Shown here one piece after another: positions 3,553-49,451 of a stretch of 64,000 nucleotides of DNA (position 1 is the first letter of the stretch; every line of letters starts with the position of its first letter). A program made the translations under genes and the position numbers. Under the pieces are notes generated by a model. The model saw nothing but the letters and a program-made list of their open reading frames with translations, had not been told where the DNA came from and searched no databases. The stretch is from assembly GCA_944321875.1 (NCBI GenBank), contig CALUMX010000009.1, forward strand, positions 35,608 to 99,607, given 5' to 3'. Source of the stretch: an uncultured Muribaculaceae bacterium (GTDB lineage: Bacteria > Bacteroidota > Bacteroidia > Bacteroidales > Muribaculaceae).

Positions 3553-3750
3553 GGGGTTGGGTGAGTTGGTCGTATGGTTTGGGCAATTGTGTGGAATAAT
3601 GACGGCGCGCTGTATCGTTTTGTAGGGATGTGTTTCAGAGTGCTCGGTGTGAATAAAGTGTTGGGAAATAGGTTGTTATACGCGAATTTGCTTCGGTCTT
3701 TCGGGGAGGCGGACGCACCGGGGGTACGTCCCTACGCTCGGGGAAGACAC

Positions 3751-3820
3751 TGCGGCTCGGCAAAGCCAAACTTGAAAACTTCGTTTTCGTTTGTCTCTGC
3801 GCTCGCCTTGCACTACTTTG
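3751..3820 (+). repeat. Dispersed hairpin repeat, unit 1
   Basis: Starts with the constant TGCGGCTCGGC and ends with TGCGCTCGCCTTGCACTA. The middle forms a stem: CAAAC and GAAAAC on the left pair with GTTTTC and GTTTG on the right. The end box reads TACTTTG, one base short of TAnnTTTG. It is joined to unit 2 by a 12-base linker (GATAAGATAGGC). Related units lie at 25108-25170 and 46541-46694. Confidence 0.8.
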
Positions 3821-3832
3821 GATAAGATAGGC

Positions 3833-3895
3833 TGCGGCTCGGCATAAAAAATCAAGCAAGCTTGTTTTTTCTGCGCTCGCCTTGCACTATCTTTG
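3833..3895 (+). repeat. Dispersed hairpin repeat, unit 2, carrying the recO promoter box
   Basis: Same constant ends as unit 1 but a different stem: AAAAAA-t-CAAGC pairs with GCTTGTTTTTT. It ends in TATCTTTG (3888-3895), an exact -7 element. The recO ATG begins only five bases later, so the repeat appears to supply the promoter of recO. A TTG lies at 3862-3864, a 23-base spacer. Confidence 0.8.
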
Positions 3896-3899
3896 TAAT

Positions 3900-4625
3900 A
3901 TGTATGAAAGGGTGAAAGGTGTGGTGCTCCACACGATAAAGTATAACGATAAGAATGCGGTCGTGAAGGTGTATACCGACACGCATGGCATCATTCCGTT
4001 TCTGCTGCCGCAGGGTAGCGGCAAGGTGGCCCGTATGCGCAGGGCGCTGTTTCAGCCGCTGTCGATTGTGGAGATAGAGACGGATATTGTGCCGCACCGC
4101 GACATTTACCGTATCCTTCAGGTGCATTGCCTGCAGCCTCTCGCCAATCTCCACACTGACCCTGTGAAGAATGCGGTGGCGCTGTTCGTGACGGAGCTGC
4201 TCTCCCACGTTATTGTGGAGCAGGAGGAGAATGCGCCGCTGTTCTCCTATGTGTCGAGTTCGGTGGCTCTTCTCGACCGGATAGAGCGGGGTGTGGCTAA
4301 TTTCCATCTTTGTTTCCTCTATAATCTCGGGTTGTTTATCGGCATTGAGCCGGATGTGGCAACCTATGAGGAGGGGCGTATTTTCGACATGATGAACGGT
4401 GTCTTTATCGACGGATTGCCCTTGCACGGTCACTTCCTGAGCCGGGAGGAGTCGGCGGTGCTCTACCGCTTGTCGCGTATCAACTATGAAAATATGCACC
4501 TTTACCGCTTCAACCGCCAGCAGCGCATGCGTCTGCTTGAACTGATGCTCGACTATTACAGACTGCACAGTTCTGCCATCGGAGAGCTGCGTTCGCCGGC
4601 CATCCTCAGCGCATTGTTTGAATAA
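3900..4625 (+). CDS. recO: DNA repair protein RecO
   Basis: 241 residues, the size of E. coli RecO, which with RecF and RecR loads RecA onto SSB-coated single-stranded DNA. The N-terminal OB-fold is seen as V-K-G-V-V-L-H-T-I-K-Y-N-D-K-N-A-V-V-K-V-Y-T, followed by a helical C-terminal domain. The zinc-binding cysteines of some RecO proteins are absent. I chose the ATG at 3900 because the OB-fold begins at residue 5. The -7 box TATCTTTG ends at 3895, so the message would have almost no leader. The convergent pfkA gene is separated by a shared terminator. Confidence 0.9.
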   Translation: MYERVKGVVLHTIKYNDKNAVVKVYTDTHGIIPFLLPQGSGKVARMRRALFQPLSIVEIETDIVPHRDIYRILQVHCLQPLANLHTDPVKNAVALFVTELLSHVIVEQEENAPLFSYVSSSVALLDRIERGVANFHLCFLYNLGLFIGIEPDVATYEEGRIFDMMNGVFIDGLPLHGHFLSREESAVLYRLSRINYENMHLYRFNRQQRMRLLELMLDYYRLHSSAIGELRSPAILSALFE

Positions 4626-23672: not shown

Positions 23673-24509
23673 TTAGTCTGAAAGAATATTCCATGTAATG
23701 CAGTTGAGTGCACCGCCTTCGTTGGCTATTCCGGTGATGGAAATGGAAAAAATACGGTCTGCGTAGTCCGGGAAAAGTTGGGTGATTTGTTGGTGTGCCT
23801 GGGCATCTTCTTCGGCGTTGAAGGCCGGAATGACAATCAATTGGCTTGTTTGCAGATAGTTGATGTAAGCCCAGCTGTGCCGGTGTGGGCGTGACGTGTT
23901 GTAGGAAAGGGTGTGAACATTGAACTTCTTGGAAAGTTGATTGGCTATTTTGTCGGCAGAAGCAGGGTCGAAGTCATAATAGTTGGTCATGAGAACTTCT
24001 TTGTCTCTGATAAAACGTACAACTCCGTCTGCATGTCCGTATTTCTCCATTTTATCCCAGTAAATGAGCAAAACTTCACACTGGAAAAGAGATTCAAGTT
24101 GAGCTATAAGTTCTACCTTGGAATAGTTCCGTCTGTTTTCTTCCACCACCTTTTCTGTCATAATAACGCAATCGTCACATTTAATGACGTTGCCGCCGTC
24201 AATTATGATGTCCGTTTTTATGGTTTCGATACCGAGGTCCTGCAATGTTTGCGTAGGATCTGTAATGTAGGGAATGTCGATAGAGTTATTTCTTAGATAA
24301 TCAGGGAAATAGTAATATTGAATAAAGCGGTTTCGGCTTGTCTGTATGGGCATATAGTCACGGCACCAACTGTCATTGGTGTGTAGTAATAATTTGCAGG
24401 GAACGTTATGCGACTTCAGCAGTCGGATGATGCGCTGGGTGATACGGGGATGCTGCTGGAAAGTTTGTTTGGAAATGAATACTGTATCTGTCTGTGCGTC
24501 GGTTATCAT
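23673..24509 (-). CDS. Agmatine/peptidylarginine deiminase family protein
   Basis: 278 residues from the ATG at 24509, which overlaps the stop of the upstream gene as ATGA, indicating coupled translation. Motifs of the guanidino-group hydrolase fold are intact: N-D-S-W-C-R-D-Y-M-P-I, I-I-D-G-G-N-V-I, K-Y-G-H-A-D-G-V-V-R-F (catalytic His and Asp) and N-E-G-G-A-L-N-C-I-T-W-N with the catalytic Cys near the end. It is shorter than AguA (about 340-370) and begins after the first part of that fold, as do other short Bacteroidales members. It should deiminate a guanidine compound, but whether agmatine, arginine or protein arginine is open. Confidence 0.8.
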   Translation of the reverse strand: MITDAQTDTVFISKQTFQQHPRITQRIIRLLKSHNVPCKLLLHTNDSWCRDYMPIQTSRNRFIQYYYFPDYLRNNSIDIPYITDPTQTLQDLGIETIKTDIIIDGGNVIKCDDCVIMTEKVVEENRRNYSKVELIAQLESLFQCEVLLIYWDKMEKYGHADGVVRFIRDKEVLMTNYYDFDPASADKIANQLSKKFNVHTLSYNTSRPHRHSWAYINYLQTSQLIVIPAFNAEEDAQAHQQITQLFPDYADRIFSISITGIANEGGALNCITWNILSD

Positions 24510-25102
24510 ATTAAGTCGGATTTGTCTATACCGAAACGCCATTCACGCGGTTTGTCTTCTCCGTCAACGATAGGTATATTGTGACGGGGGCCTTGTGTAA
24601 GACGTTTATTCGAATAGTTGTCAACGGGTGCATCTATCCACGTTATGGATAGGCCGTCGCCTCCAATAAATGAGGCATTTCCAAACAAATCTTCTCTTAG
24701 ATAGGTTGGGTTGTAGTTCTTACTTTTGTTGTTCGTATAGGTTTCTTTATTGTCAACATACTTATAACCGCGGATAAGAAACGAGGCTCTAAACTTTTTC
24801 AGCTCATTTTCGAATGTTACGTCAACACCGGAGTTATGAGGATGGAATGAACCGATAGGGAAATATGGGACATCACCCTGGTGATACATTTTTGGTTCAT
24901 GTATGCCATCGGCTGTCTCGGAGTGGAAATAGAATTCAACATCGAGAATGTAAATTTTATAGGAGTTGTTGATAAGAAAATATCCACCGTAAATGGCCGC
25001 TTGGGCTATTTTCTTAAATTCAACGGTTAATTGGTCGATATCGGCCTTGTCAGGATTGAATGAGAGTAAAAGTTCAGGTAATGTTTGCATAGCTAAATCC
25101 AT
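24506..25102 (-). CDS. Unknown protein translationally coupled to the deiminase
   Basis: 198 residues from the ATG at 25102 (an in-frame ATG at 25090 is also possible; an extended start at 25171 would run through the promoter repeat). Soluble, no signal peptide. Conspicuous stretches are L-D-V-E-F-Y-F-H-S-E, P-I-G-S-F-H-P-H-N-S-G-V-D-V-T-F, F-R-A-S-F-L-I-R-G and R-L-T-Q-G-P-R. The H-x-H-N-S-G-x-D pattern and D-V-E-x-Y hint at an enzyme that binds a nucleic acid or nucleotide, perhaps related to methylpurine glycosylase-like folds, but I cannot assign it. The -7 box of the repeat unit ends five bases before the ATG. Confidence 0.65.
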   Translation of the reverse strand: MDLAMQTLPELLLSFNPDKADIDQLTVEFKKIAQAAIYGGYFLINNSYKIYILDVEFYFHSETADGIHEPKMYHQGDVPYFPIGSFHPHNSGVDVTFENELKKFRASFLIRGYKYVDNKETYTNNKSKNYNPTYLREDLFGNASFIGGDGLSITWIDAPVDNYSNKRLTQGPRHNIPIVDGEDKPREWRFGIDKSDLI

Positions 25103-25107
25103 TTTTT

Positions 25108-25170
25108 CAAAGATAGTGAAAGGCGGGAGTAAAGAAAACAAGTTCACTTGATTTTTTATGCCGAGCCGCA
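25108..25170 (-). repeat. Dispersed hairpin repeat, unit 5, with promoter box
   Basis: On the minus strand it starts TGCGGCTCGGCATAAAAAA as unit 2 (3833-3895) does, and ends CCTTTCACTATCTTTG. The stem differs from unit 2 (CAAGT pairs with ACTTG, where unit 2 has CAAGC with GCTTG) yet still pairs. TATCTTTG at 25108-25115 lies directly before the start of the unknown gene at 25102. Confidence 0.8.
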
Positions 25171-25342
25171 TCTGATATTATCTAATATAGGAAAAACGAG
25201 AGTAAGATATTTAGTATCCTAAATAGAGAATAATTCGGTCAGTAAGGTGGTGTTCCGGTGATTTTGTCAATGCTTTTTCTGAGTGTCATCAGTTTGATGA
25301 AAATCAAAAAACATTATGGCCTAATTTATAGAACTTGCCTTA

Positions 25343-41270: not shown

Positions 41271-41391
41271 TTTTCCAATTTGTTTTAAAAGTGGAACACA
41301 TGCATACCGGAAAACTGAGGGGAGAATTCGCAGTTTTAGCATTTTTTTAGGTGGTTGCAAGCAGCCAAATTTGTCCACACGGTTAATAAAT
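41271..41391 (-). other. metK 5' leader with two hairpins
   Basis: The leader contains GGCTGC-TT-GCAACC and AAAACTG...CAGTTTT stems and an A-rich stretch between them. I see no match to known SAM riboswitch cores; a regulatory role is possible only. Confidence 0.35.
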
Positions 41392-46480: not shown

Positions 46481-46540
46481 CAAAGGAAGAGAGGCGTTTG
46501 CCCTGACGGTGTCTTTTCGCTATCTTTGAATAAGATAGGA

Positions 46541-46610
46541 AGCGGCTCGGCAAAGCCGAACCGAAAACTGCGTTTTCTGTTTGGTTCTGCGCTCGCCTTT
46601 CACTATTTTT
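46541..46610 (+). repeat. Dispersed hairpin repeat, unit 3
   Basis: GCGGCTCGGC start and TGCGCTCGCCTTTCACTA end. The stem pairs GAACC and GAAAAC with GTTTTC and GGTTC. A remnant of a further unit end (GCTATCTTTGAATAAGATAGG, 46519-46539) lies just before it. The end box is degenerate (TATTTTTA). Confidence 0.8.
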
Positions 46611-46623
46611 AGATAAAATAGGA

Positions 46624-46694
46624 TGCGGCTCGGCAAAGCCAAACCGAAAACTGCGTTTTCCGTTTGGTTCTGCGCTCGCCTTTCACTATTTTTG
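46624..46694 (+). repeat. Dispersed hairpin repeat, unit 4, with promoter box
   Basis: Same ends as unit 3; the stem pairs CCAAACCGAAAAC with GTTTTCCGTTTGG (12 of 13). TTTG (46663-46666), a 20-base spacer and TATTTTTG (46687-46694) form a full consensus promoter towards the yfhO-like gene at 46815. Confidence 0.8.
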
Positions 46695-46814: not shown

Positions 46815-49451
46815 ATGCAAAAATTTGACTTAAAAGCCGTTTCCGAAGGCTTTAAAGCGGCCGTTGCCAGCAAGGGGCTGCACAGAGCGTTGCTCGGTGT
46901 GGCGGTGATGCTGGTGATTTCCGTGCTTTATTTCTCCACCAGCTTTGGCGAGGTGCTGCAGCAGAACGACATCATGCAGGGCGTGGCCAACGGCCAGGAG
47001 GCAAAGGAATTCTACGAGGCAACCGGCGAGAAGACCAACTGGACCAACTCGCTGTTTTCAGGAATGCCTACGTTCCAAATCTCTCCGTCCTACAGCAGTA
47101 CGTCCATGGTGAAGGCGCTTCAGGACGTCTACAGCCTGTGGCTCCCAAGCCCGGTTAACCTGCTGTTTATCATGATGTTCGGTTTCTATATTCTGATGCT
47201 CGCTTTCGGCGTGCGGTGGTATCTGGCTCTGCTCGGTGCCATCGGCTATGGCTTCTCGTCCTACTTCCTGATTATTATCGGAGCCGGGCATATCTGGAAA
47301 TTCTGTGTGCTTGCCTACATCCCGCCCACAATTGCCGGCATTGTGCTCTGCTACAGAGGCCGGTTGCTGCTTGGTGGCGCGCTGACGGCGTTTTTCGGCA
47401 TGATGCAGATTGTGTCCAACCACGTTCAGATGACTTTCTATTTCCTTTTCGTGGTAGTGGCCATGATGATTGCCTATGCCGTCGAGGCTTACCGCAAGAA
47501 GGAGATGAAGAAGTGGTACAAGGCTACGGCTACGCTTGTCGTGGCCGGAATATTGGCGGTGGGAGCCAACCTGACCAGCCTTTACAATACGTATGAGTAC
47601 AGTAAGGAGACGACCCGCGGCCGTACGACGGAGCTGACTCCGCTCAACACGGCAGAGGGTGAGGAGTCTCACAACGTAAATAAGAACGGAATCAACCGCG
47701 ATGCCGTAACGGCATGGAGCTACGGCGTAGACGAGACGCTGACGCTGCTCGTGCCTAATCTGAAGGGTGGCGCGACAGTGAAGCCCAACGATTATAGCGA
47801 CGAGGGCGGTCTTGCTGCAGCTTCGGTGGTTGAGATTGACGGTTTTGATGACCTGGTGGCCAATTCCTCGATTACGGGCGACCCGGCTCAGGACGAGTCG
47901 CTGCGTCCGCAGTTGCGTGAGGTGTGCAGTCAGTTCCGCCAGTATTTCGGTGACCAGCCGATGACCAACGGTCCGGTTTATGTCGGTGCGCTCATCTTTG
48001 CCCTGTTCCTGCTGGGCATCATGGTGGTGAAGGGTCCGATGAAGTGGGCTTTGCTGGCCGTTACGGTGCTGGCGCTGCTGTTGTCGTGGGGTCACAACTT
48101 CGCTCCGTTCAACTACTGGATGATTGACAATTTCCCGATGTACGACAAGTTCCGTACGCCGTCGAGCGTGCTCGTCGTGGTTGAGTTCACGATGCCGTTG
48201 CTGGCTGTGCTGGCTATCGAGAAGATGCTCTCCACGGAGAATTTCTTCGCTACCTACCGCCGTCAGCTCTACATAGCGTTTGGTGTGCCGATGTTCCTCT
48301 GCCTGCTGCTGGCCATCATGCCGTCGGTGTTTGGAAACGGAATGTCGCAGGCCGAGAACGCTCAGATGAATGAGTTGATTATGGGAACAAGCGGCTTGGA
48401 GCAAGCTTTCTATCACCGTGTGGCAGAAGTGGTGAAGGAAGCCCGCCTGATGATGGTTTCGGCCGACGCATGGCGCAGTTTCTTCATCCTTGCCGTTGGT
48501 CTGGCTGCCGTATGGCTCTATCTGTCGGGCAAATTGAAGGCCGTGCCTTTCTGCCTGATTCTGCTGGCAGTGGTCGTGTTTGACCTTTACACGGTCGACA
48601 AGCGTTACCTCAATGCCGACAACTTTGTCAAGAAGTCGCACACGGAGGCAATGACTATCCAGCCGTCTGCTGCCGATACGGAAATCATGAAGGATAAGTC
48701 GAACTACAGGGTGATGCTCGTTGGCGGTCTCGGACTTCCTGACCCGTCCTACTTCCACAAGAGCATCGGTGGCTACCATGCGGCTAAGCTGACGCGCTAC
48801 AACGACTTGATGGAGCGTCAGATACAACCGGCCGACAGATGGCTGATACAGCGTATCCAGCAAGGCGACTCCCTCGACCTGGCTGCGCCGCAGATGAACA
48901 TGATTAACCTGCTCAATACGAAATATCTCATTATAGGAGAATCGTTTGTCGAGAACCCGGAAGCCCGTGGCAACGCATGGTTTGTCGACAGAATCAGCTA
49001 TGTTGAGAATCCGGATGCCGAAATGGCTGCCATCAGCAAGCTCGGCCGTACGGAGGCCGTGGCCGATAAGAAGTTTGAGTCGGTGCTGGGCAAGGCGAAT
49101 GCCGTGATGCCGGGCGATACGATTTACGAGACTTCCTACAAGCCGAACGAGCTGGCTTATAAGGCTGTGTCGAAGAACGGCGGTCTGGCTGTCTTCTCCG
49201 AAATCTACTTCCCGTGGGGATGGACCGCTACTGTCGACGGCAAGGAAGTGCCCGTAGGACGTGTGGACTACATGCTCCGTGCCCTGCAGGTTCCTGCCGG
49301 AGAGCACGACATCGTGTTCCGCTTTGACCCGCAGTCAATCCATACGACAGAAACGGTGGCCTACACTTCGACCACGATTATTTATCTGATGCTTGCCGCT
49401 GCCTTTCTGCTGTCGATTGCAGCGTTGGCACGCCGTAAGGAAAACAAATAA
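46815..49451 (+). CDS. YfhO family multi-pass membrane protein
   Basis: 878 residues from the ATG at 46815. Twelve or more membrane helices, with a long extracytoplasmic C-terminal segment that has F-S-E-I-Y-F-P-W-G-W-T-A and V-D-G-K-E-V-P-V-G-R-V-D-Y-M-L-R-A, the YfhO hallmark, and a last helix. YfhO proteins are GT-C-type glycosyltransferases; B. subtilis YfhO glycosylates lipoteichoic acid, and in Bacteroidota the target is probably a lipid- or surface-glycan, by inference. Its promoter lies in the hairpin repeat at 46624-46694. The methyltransferase-like gene follows after 12 bases. Confidence 0.85.
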   Translation: MQKFDLKAVSEGFKAAVASKGLHRALLGVAVMLVISVLYFSTSFGEVLQQNDIMQGVANGQEAKEFYEATGEKTNWTNSLFSGMPTFQISPSYSSTSMVKALQDVYSLWLPSPVNLLFIMMFGFYILMLAFGVRWYLALLGAIGYGFSSYFLIIIGAGHIWKFCVLAYIPPTIAGIVLCYRGRLLLGGALTAFFGMMQIVSNHVQMTFYFLFVVVAMMIAYAVEAYRKKEMKKWYKATATLVVAGILAVGANLTSLYNTYEYSKETTRGRTTELTPLNTAEGEESHNVNKNGINRDAVTAWSYGVDETLTLLVPNLKGGATVKPNDYSDEGGLAAASVVEIDGFDDLVANSSITGDPAQDESLRPQLREVCSQFRQYFGDQPMTNGPVYVGALIFALFLLGIMVVKGPMKWALLAVTVLALLLSWGHNFAPFNYWMIDNFPMYDKFRTPSSVLVVVEFTMPLLAVLAIEKMLSTENFFATYRRQLYIAFGVPMFLCLLLAIMPSVFGNGMSQAENAQMNELIMGTSGLEQAFYHRVAEVVKEARLMMVSADAWRSFFILAVGLAAVWLYLSGKLKAVPFCLILLAVVVFDLYTVDKRYLNADNFVKKSHTEAMTIQPSAADTEIMKDKSNYRVMLVGGLGLPDPSYFHKSIGGYHAAKLTRYNDLMERQIQPADRWLIQRIQQGDSLDLAAPQMNMINLLNTKYLIIGESFVENPEARGNAWFVDRISYVENPDAEMAAISKLGRTEAVADKKFESVLGKANAVMPGDTIYETSYKPNELAYKAVSKNGGLAVFSEIYFPWGWTATVDGKEVPVGRVDYMLRALQVPAGEHDIVFRFDPQSIHTTETVAYTSTTIIYLMLAAAFLLSIAALARRKENK

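Follow-up and report, generated by a model that had tools for sequence, protein, structure and literature searches.

A hairpin repeat of ~83 bp appears to have spread through this genome by insertion behind existing promoter boxes of the form TAnnTTTG, its own gene-facing box then replacing the old promoter. Judged from sequence comparison, this reading has a probability of roughly two in three. The repeat would be a mobile but non-autonomous hairpin which carries a promoter and integrates immediately 3′ of a native -7 box, with an enzyme encoded elsewhere presumably acting on the folded or paired ends of the unit. Transcription would begin behind the box of the unit, leaving the gene dependent on it, and the displaced native box would decay. 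The 3′ end of the unit would offer a fresh target for later insertions, and since every unit ends in such a target, arrays could be built by later insertions or by tandem duplication. If each insertion lands on a promoter and leaves one behind, it would do almost no harm, and this would account for the ~150 copies, several of which precede core genes.

In the window (the whole stretch of 64,000 nt that was analysed), a pattern made of both constant ends of the unit has four matches, compared with none in 100 shuffles (Table 1). The earlier note had reported these two ends as recurring, and had placed a tandem pair ending in a -7 box before recO; the pair does end in TATCTTTG and the RecO identity is confirmed by Pfam. 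The degenerate boxes that it had seen in units 1 and 3 were also read correctly. Its recurrences with gene-facing boxes stand as a minus-strand copy and a second pair, but their extents are now 25108-25180 and 46530-46694. The unit lengths of 63 and 70 bases that it gave were wrong, as a 7-base arm to the left of the 'constant end' opens each unit. It also overlooked the native box directly before unit 3. Nor did it note that the site apparently targeted is a promoter box too, which means that the usual effect of the repeat would be to replace promoters already present and not to create new ones.

Table 1. Hairpin units in the window with their boxes and the genes behind them
Feature	Position	Strand	Remarks
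recO array, unit 1	3747..3821	+	left arm gone; degenerate box TACTTTGG at 3814-3821
recO array, unit 2	3822..3895	+	short-core type; arm AAGATAG at 3824-3830; -7 box TATCTTTG at 3888-3895
recO	3900..4625	+	Pfam RecO_N and RecO_C; start read from sequence
Single unit	25108..25180	-	box TATCTTTG at 25115-25108 (minus strand)
ORF 5 nt behind the box of the single unit	24506..25102	-	start by eye
Native -7 box TATCTTTG	46521..46528	+	directly 5′ of unit 3; proposed insertion target
Unit 3	46530..46611	+	full length; arm AAGATAG; degenerate box TATTTTTA at 46604-46611
Unit 4	46613..46694	+	full length; arm AAAATAG matches own box TATTTTTG at 46687-46694
Downstream membrane-protein gene	46815..49451	+	YfhO-like match below Pfam cut-off

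The individual units vary in detail. The ATG of recO lies 4 nt 3′ of the unit 2 box, before which TTTG is absent at the 20-nt spacing. In the single minus-strand unit the right constant end is altered to ACTCCCGCC, giving three mismatches to the search pattern, and the box in its left flank is degenerate. The minus-strand ORF behind it, listed as 24506-25171, begins within the repeat; by eye, the in-frame ATG at 25102 is the likelier start, and no Pfam family matched the ORF. Unit 4 has a TTTG at 46663-46666, exactly 20 nt 5′ of its box, and the membrane-protein ORF downstream is listed from 46752 with an in-frame ATG at 46815.

The consensus of the unit, ATAAGATAGGATGCGGCTCGGC ... CTGCGCTCGCCTTTCACTATCTTTG, was drawn from 24 copies with flanks and comprises ~83 bp, or ~74 bp where the core is short. 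The whole unit forms one imperfect hairpin whose ends pair. At the 3′ end the -7 box TATCTTTG overlaps the sequence CTATCTT, to which the 5′ arm, AAGATAG, is reverse-complementary, and these terminal inverted repeats carry compensatory changes. Arm and box covary, with TATATTTG accompanied by AATATAG and TAACTTTG by AAGTTAG. The two free letters of the box fit the arm in 145 of the 171 complete units with TAnnTTTN ends, an agreement that spans TC, TA, TT, AC, AT and CC boxes, and the three pairs adjoining the arm vary as well (GGC:GCC, GCC:GGC, ATC:GAT, ATT:AAT, GTC:GAC and others). Tandem units are separated by a few bases at most, and a few copies, including unit 1 before recO, have no left arm.

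Covariation extends along the stem. In alignment A2, which comprises 44 of a diverse set of 58 units taken here and in relatives and favours pairing in that the 14 omitted were mostly degenerate, the 23-pair hairpin is formed in 86.5% of cells versus 73.3 ± 0.7% in shuffles; 16 pairs show double changes, and 125 cells are compensatory. None of 500 shuffles reached its pairing percentage, double changes and compensatory cells; nine of 500 reached its number of further pair types. Control structures slid by 1-3 columns are only 35-48% paired. Fold stability z scores are -1.9 for the recO unit, whose hairpin is not exceptional in stability, -4.3 for unit 3 and -4.2 for unit 4.

A conserved stable fold is also what a regulatory RNA or attenuator would have, with the hairpin working in a transcript from a native or internal promoter, and transcripts from boxes to the left of a unit would include it. 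Over all 190 distinct complete units, 82.6% of the paired cells are Watson-Crick, 2.9% G.T, 3.3% A.C and 11.1% other. The near-equal wobble counts (126 G.T vs 144 A.C) give no sign of the sense RNA as the selected form, and a hairpin acting at the RNA level was rejected for want of a sense-strand wobble excess. Moreover, the terminal box lies 3′ of the hairpin, so its transcript would lack the hairpin, and no Rfam family matched the window's units over its gathering score, the only matches in the window being SAM-II and tRNAs. An attenuator is on these grounds highly improbable.

The genome as a whole (2.70 Mb in 45 contigs, 99.8% complete) contains 24 exact matches to the pattern, and the reversed pattern used as a control has none. 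The sequence-only model R1 finds at least 150 copies, which fall in 94 sites (47 of them single) on both strands. Copy numbers are lower bounds, given that the best 150 candidates were scored here and the best 18 per genome in the order-wide survey, and the models, built from intact units, are biased to intact copies. Partial units comprise 29 without the left part and two without the right part. In 85 of the 89 arrays examined, which hold 141 of the at least 150 copies, a same-strand ORF with an ATG start and at least 80 aa lies within 300 nt of the right end, at a median of 29 nt; the same test outward from the left end succeeds in 40 of 89. Only six of 97 arrays lie within an ORF of at least 100 aa. 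A position directly upstream of genes, as opposed to one mainly inside them, is what the earlier note had expected genome-wide. In B. thetaiotaomicron the median 5′ UTR is 32 nt according to PMC7366714. Downstream of ten units whose genes were hand-picked, not drawn at random, seven genes received names from NCBIfam matches that lie over or near the cut-offs (dnaX, pyrB, leuB, rbfA, thiD, rsgA and dnaB); two of the other three have no family match and one has a helicase match below the cut-off. Being short, non-coding and present in many dispersed copies, the repeat has the marks of a MITE.

The Bacteroides promoter has TAnnTTTG at -7 and TTTG near -33, as stated in the same paper (PMC7366714). 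Among the 137 terminal units with an intact box, TTTG stands exactly 20 nt 5′ of TAnnTTTG in 81 (the next commonest spacing occurs in 8 units). In this genome an intact box is retained by 80 of 95 terminal, gene-proximal units as against 24 of 68 internal ones (p 1e-10), and the relatives show the same bias (59 of 65 terminal vs 19 of 49 internal, p 3e-9). Taken together, the kept terminal boxes, the decayed internal ones and the TTTG at 20 nt uphold, at the level of sequence, the dispersed promoter-bearing repeat that the earlier note had proposed, and the terminal box would act as the promoter of the next gene. Loss of the last G of the box is frequent among internal TAnnTTTN ends (21 of 49) and rare among terminal ones (5 of 121). 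The arm-box stem is nevertheless kept in those 21 G-less internal units, with a mean of 6.1 of 7 pairs; over all units it is somewhat weaker internally (5.9 pairs) than terminally (6.5). Loss of the G with retention of the stem suggests two separable constraints, a promoter at the terminal box and pairing in all units.

The putative target is visible at the other end of the unit. Of 91 arrays with a complete left end, 69 have a non-repeat flank with 120 nt available, and since this flank lies outside the profile it provides an independent test. In 19 of these 69 arrays the left boundary coincides exactly with the end of another TAnnTTTG, one or two bases before the first base of the profile. 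As background, the motif has a single occurrence in the flanks at offset 5 and two over the 104 offsets from 6 to 109. The remaining 50 flanks speak against the reading, having no intact box at the boundary; they would represent decayed native boxes. A looser form, TAnnTTTN, was looked for in loci drawn from R1-positive genomes and is found in 12 of 38 flanks here, 9 of 12 in G057, 2 of 6 in G002 and 2 of 5 in G026; it is absent from the left flanks in G003 (0 of 6), G001 (0 of 1) and the more distant loci (0 of 7).

TAnnTTTG on both sides of the unit, as in 19 of 69 arrays, may represent the target plus the end of the element. It could also be the 8-bp target duplication of a miniature element moved by a DDE cut-and-paste transposase, which would happen to read TAnnTTTG, with the arm-box pairing being secondary. 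Among the 19 intact targets with non-repeat flanks, TA-type arms and right ends are found in the units behind all seven TATATTTG targets (one of them a weak, degenerate match) and behind none of the other 12 (p = 2e-5). For the TATATTTG targets the free letters of the left and right boxes agree in 7/7 cases, as a duplication predicts, and terminal inverted ends exist. A duplication leaves unexplained why a 7-base internal arm pairs with the right box and tracks its changes (145/171 units), and no autonomous parent with a transposase between matching ends is apparent among the 150 copies listed in this genome. A DDE element is a serious but rather unlikely alternative.

The same agreement of arm, own box and target box (7/7 vs 0/12) suggests a more specific form of targeted insertion, as does the fact that internal units lose the promoter-only last G and keep the arm-box stem. 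The 5′ arm could be a base-pairing guide for the -7 box, picking a TAnnTTTG that matches it, inserting behind this box, perhaps during the open promoter bubble, and leaving a matching box. The repeat would then be a parasite living in promoters that re-targets by compensatory changes of arm and box, and ~100 promoters would have been re-founded in this way. Such a guide is an attractive but tentative idea that we consider doubtful.

Insertion behind a native box, whatever its chemistry, predicts boxes without units in relatives. The joined starts of 32 genes served as a query against three genomes of the genus, and 36 of the 40 orthologous matches, at 68-83% identity, were used. The repeat is absent from 34 of the 36 orthologous upstream regions by the checks applied, i.e., a short text pattern and a profile search, which found one unit there; a degenerate opposite-strand unit, seen by eye at the dnaX locus L168 of G003, was flagged by neither. 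TAnnTTTG lies within 100 nt of the start in 22 of the 34 repeat-less regions, compared with six of 34 on the reverse strand. Promoters lie near starts anyway, which makes a box at a similar distance weak evidence, with two exceptions. The first is thiD, before which a TPP riboswitch (RF00059) is found in all four genomes. The three relatives have no unit there and a single box, with gaps of 0, 1 and 1 nt between it and the start of the aptamer model. In the present genome the gap from the box of the unit is 4 nt, and another box, 87 nt upstream of the aptamer, directly adjoins the unit on its left. The single box without a unit in three relatives speaks for integration immediately 3′ of a native -7 box. 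The second exception is C29:3719, where the distance from the box to a shared TATTCA is 10 nt both here and in two relatives. In one relative TAATTTTG lies 9 nt 5′ of the recO ATG; two others have TAATTTTA, one base off. At 68-83% identity no alignable pair of close strains before and after insertion was seen.

These comparisons also bear on whether the repeat is a host promoter module, duplicated or converted by recombination and inherited vertically without being mobile. All four genomes of the genus carry the repeat, and one shared site, C9:31829, has different subfamilies in different species; its orthologs L147 and L161 occupy the same promoter site, a difference that would reflect replacement or independent re-insertion. 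The 94 sites on both strands, the 34 of 36 orthologous regions of the genus without the repeat by the checks applied and the second box exactly at the left boundary all argue against such a module, which is scarcely probable.

The distribution of the family in Bacteroidales is patchy. The present genome is probably Muribaculaceae-like, as RecO reaches at best 45% identity in named genomes and its seven top named matches belong to MAGs of Muribaculaceae or of an unspecified member of Bacteroidales. With R1, 12 of 61 genomes are positive, comprising 4/4 of the genus, 7/33 other members of the family and 1/24 others of the order. The structured model R2, scored on the best 18 candidates per genome, finds 24 of 247 Bacteroidales genomes positive in 17 of 166 genera, with three positive genomes each in genera g51 and g57.

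Extragenic hairpins with covarying stems that occur in arrays recall the REP/RAYT kind, in which single-stranded hairpins are moved by a Y1 (HUH) transposase, and an imperfect hairpin with covariation, as expected of REP elements, is found here. In IS200/IS605 elements, which are also of this general type, the cleavage site is recognised by base pairing. The RAYT-type transposase domain Y1_Tnp is absent from this genome and from 11 of the 15 carriers tested, and the carriers without it include, besides this genome, eight with at least 18 copies. In another comparison it is found in 6 of 12 carriers versus 33 of 49 non-carriers. Its absence in most carriers disfavours RAYT or IS200/IS605 as the present mobiliser, and this origin of the repeat is very unlikely. 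Similarly, no integron integrase was found over the cut-off in 15 of 15 carriers (best tyrosine recombinase match 79 of 265 bits), and integron attC sites were rejected on this ground. The searches of carriers for Y1 transposase and integron integrase thus yielded no mobilising enzyme.

A phage vehicle was considered too. The general unit pattern has no exact match in IMG/VR. BLAST returned one Phocaeicola massiliensis plasmid record and seven unannotated faecal scaffolds filed as 'Bacteriophage sp.'; the four of these records that were inspected all carry units of the same type, and scaffolds such as MT836408, MT835991 and MT836672 have arrays before ORF-like starts. The scaffolds may be bacterial contigs, and a phage vehicle was set aside.

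Promoter-bearing miniature elements land near genes and sometimes make promoters, and among the open-licence PMC papers searched none describes this hairpin family. IS200/IS605 guides and integron attC sites are folded single strands in which short internal sequences pair with the cleavage site, and their structure is conserved despite sequence change. The present repeat resembles them in its folding, in the pairing with a putative cleavage site and in keeping structure over sequence, and differs in that most carriers have no Y1 and none of the 15 has an integron integrase over the cut-off. Putative mobile promoters, or promoter propagation, denote promoter sequences repeated at non-homologous places; here the carrier would be a defined element with ends, a fold and a target. 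Both terms occur in PMC8049555.

The Correia elements (CREE) of Neisseria are similarly short, with terminal inverted repeats and more than 100 copies, many of them before genes, and their ends can form promoters, as PMC2649163 describes. In that account their promoters are partial and become complete through a native -35 or through the sequence at certain insertion sites, and either end can be used. The repeat studied here has a complete -33/-7 promoter at one end only, a -7 box as its apparent target and arm/box covariation; it is set apart by the description of CREE and not by sequence comparison. The BrickBuilt MITE of Porphyromonas gingivalis is another promoter-bearing intergenic miniature element of Bacteroidales, which according to PMC4596501 differs in its copy number (19 in one strain), its trapped 23-nt direct repeats, its other terminal repeats and its bidirectional promoter activity measured in E. 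coli. REP/REPIN sequences with RAYT share the extragenic hairpins, tandem arrays and non-autonomous nature, and carry, according to PMC3733652 and PMC8049555, a GTAG or CGTC tag, which by eye is not in the consensus of this unit; besides the missing Y1 in most carriers, the promoter end and the promoter target appear to be new. By the features seen, the repeat differs from Correia and BrickBuilt elements although it would work alike. It may be regarded as a promoter-targeting variety of promoter-bearing miniature element, its novelty lying in the -7 box as target and the replacement box that it brings. If so, -7 targeting with replacement would account for the tolerance of so dense a repeat before dnaX, dnaB, rbfA and recO, and would provide a natural route to exchange the promoters of a genome singly. 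It would also offer a practical rule for annotating carrier Bacteroidales, in which promoters could be read off at the right ends of terminal units. The question raised is which enzyme can recognise both the folded hairpin and a promoter box.

Several minor features accompany the arrays. A common one-base deletion (TACTTTGG/A/T) marks the internal boxes of one subfamily group, as at C1:131229, C3:126115, C17:19558, C19:4017, C28:41435 and others and at 3814-3821 in the window, which suggests that dimers spread as a whole. Identical foreign sequence at contig ends (C2:80, C18:58626 and C37:29776; C19:78, C5:122051 and C6:121223), probably belonging to insertion sequences, abuts units at or near the box-arm junction, and it looks as if other elements too target this junction. 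A second dispersed, G/C-rich repeat (GCGCACCTGGGGTACGCCCCTAC-like) borders several hairpin arrays, with a window copy at 3707-3736. Its pattern occurs at four places in the own-genome loci searched and does not match the slightly different window copy; sites are L090 (1386 and 1501), L131 (1262), L012 (1350) and the C44 array. Elsewhere in the window, a SAM-II riboswitch (RF01726, 57.7 bits) lies at 41326-41384 on the minus strand, and two minus-strand tRNA genes with identical scores, at 2074-2145 and 2451-2522, are ~300 bases apart.
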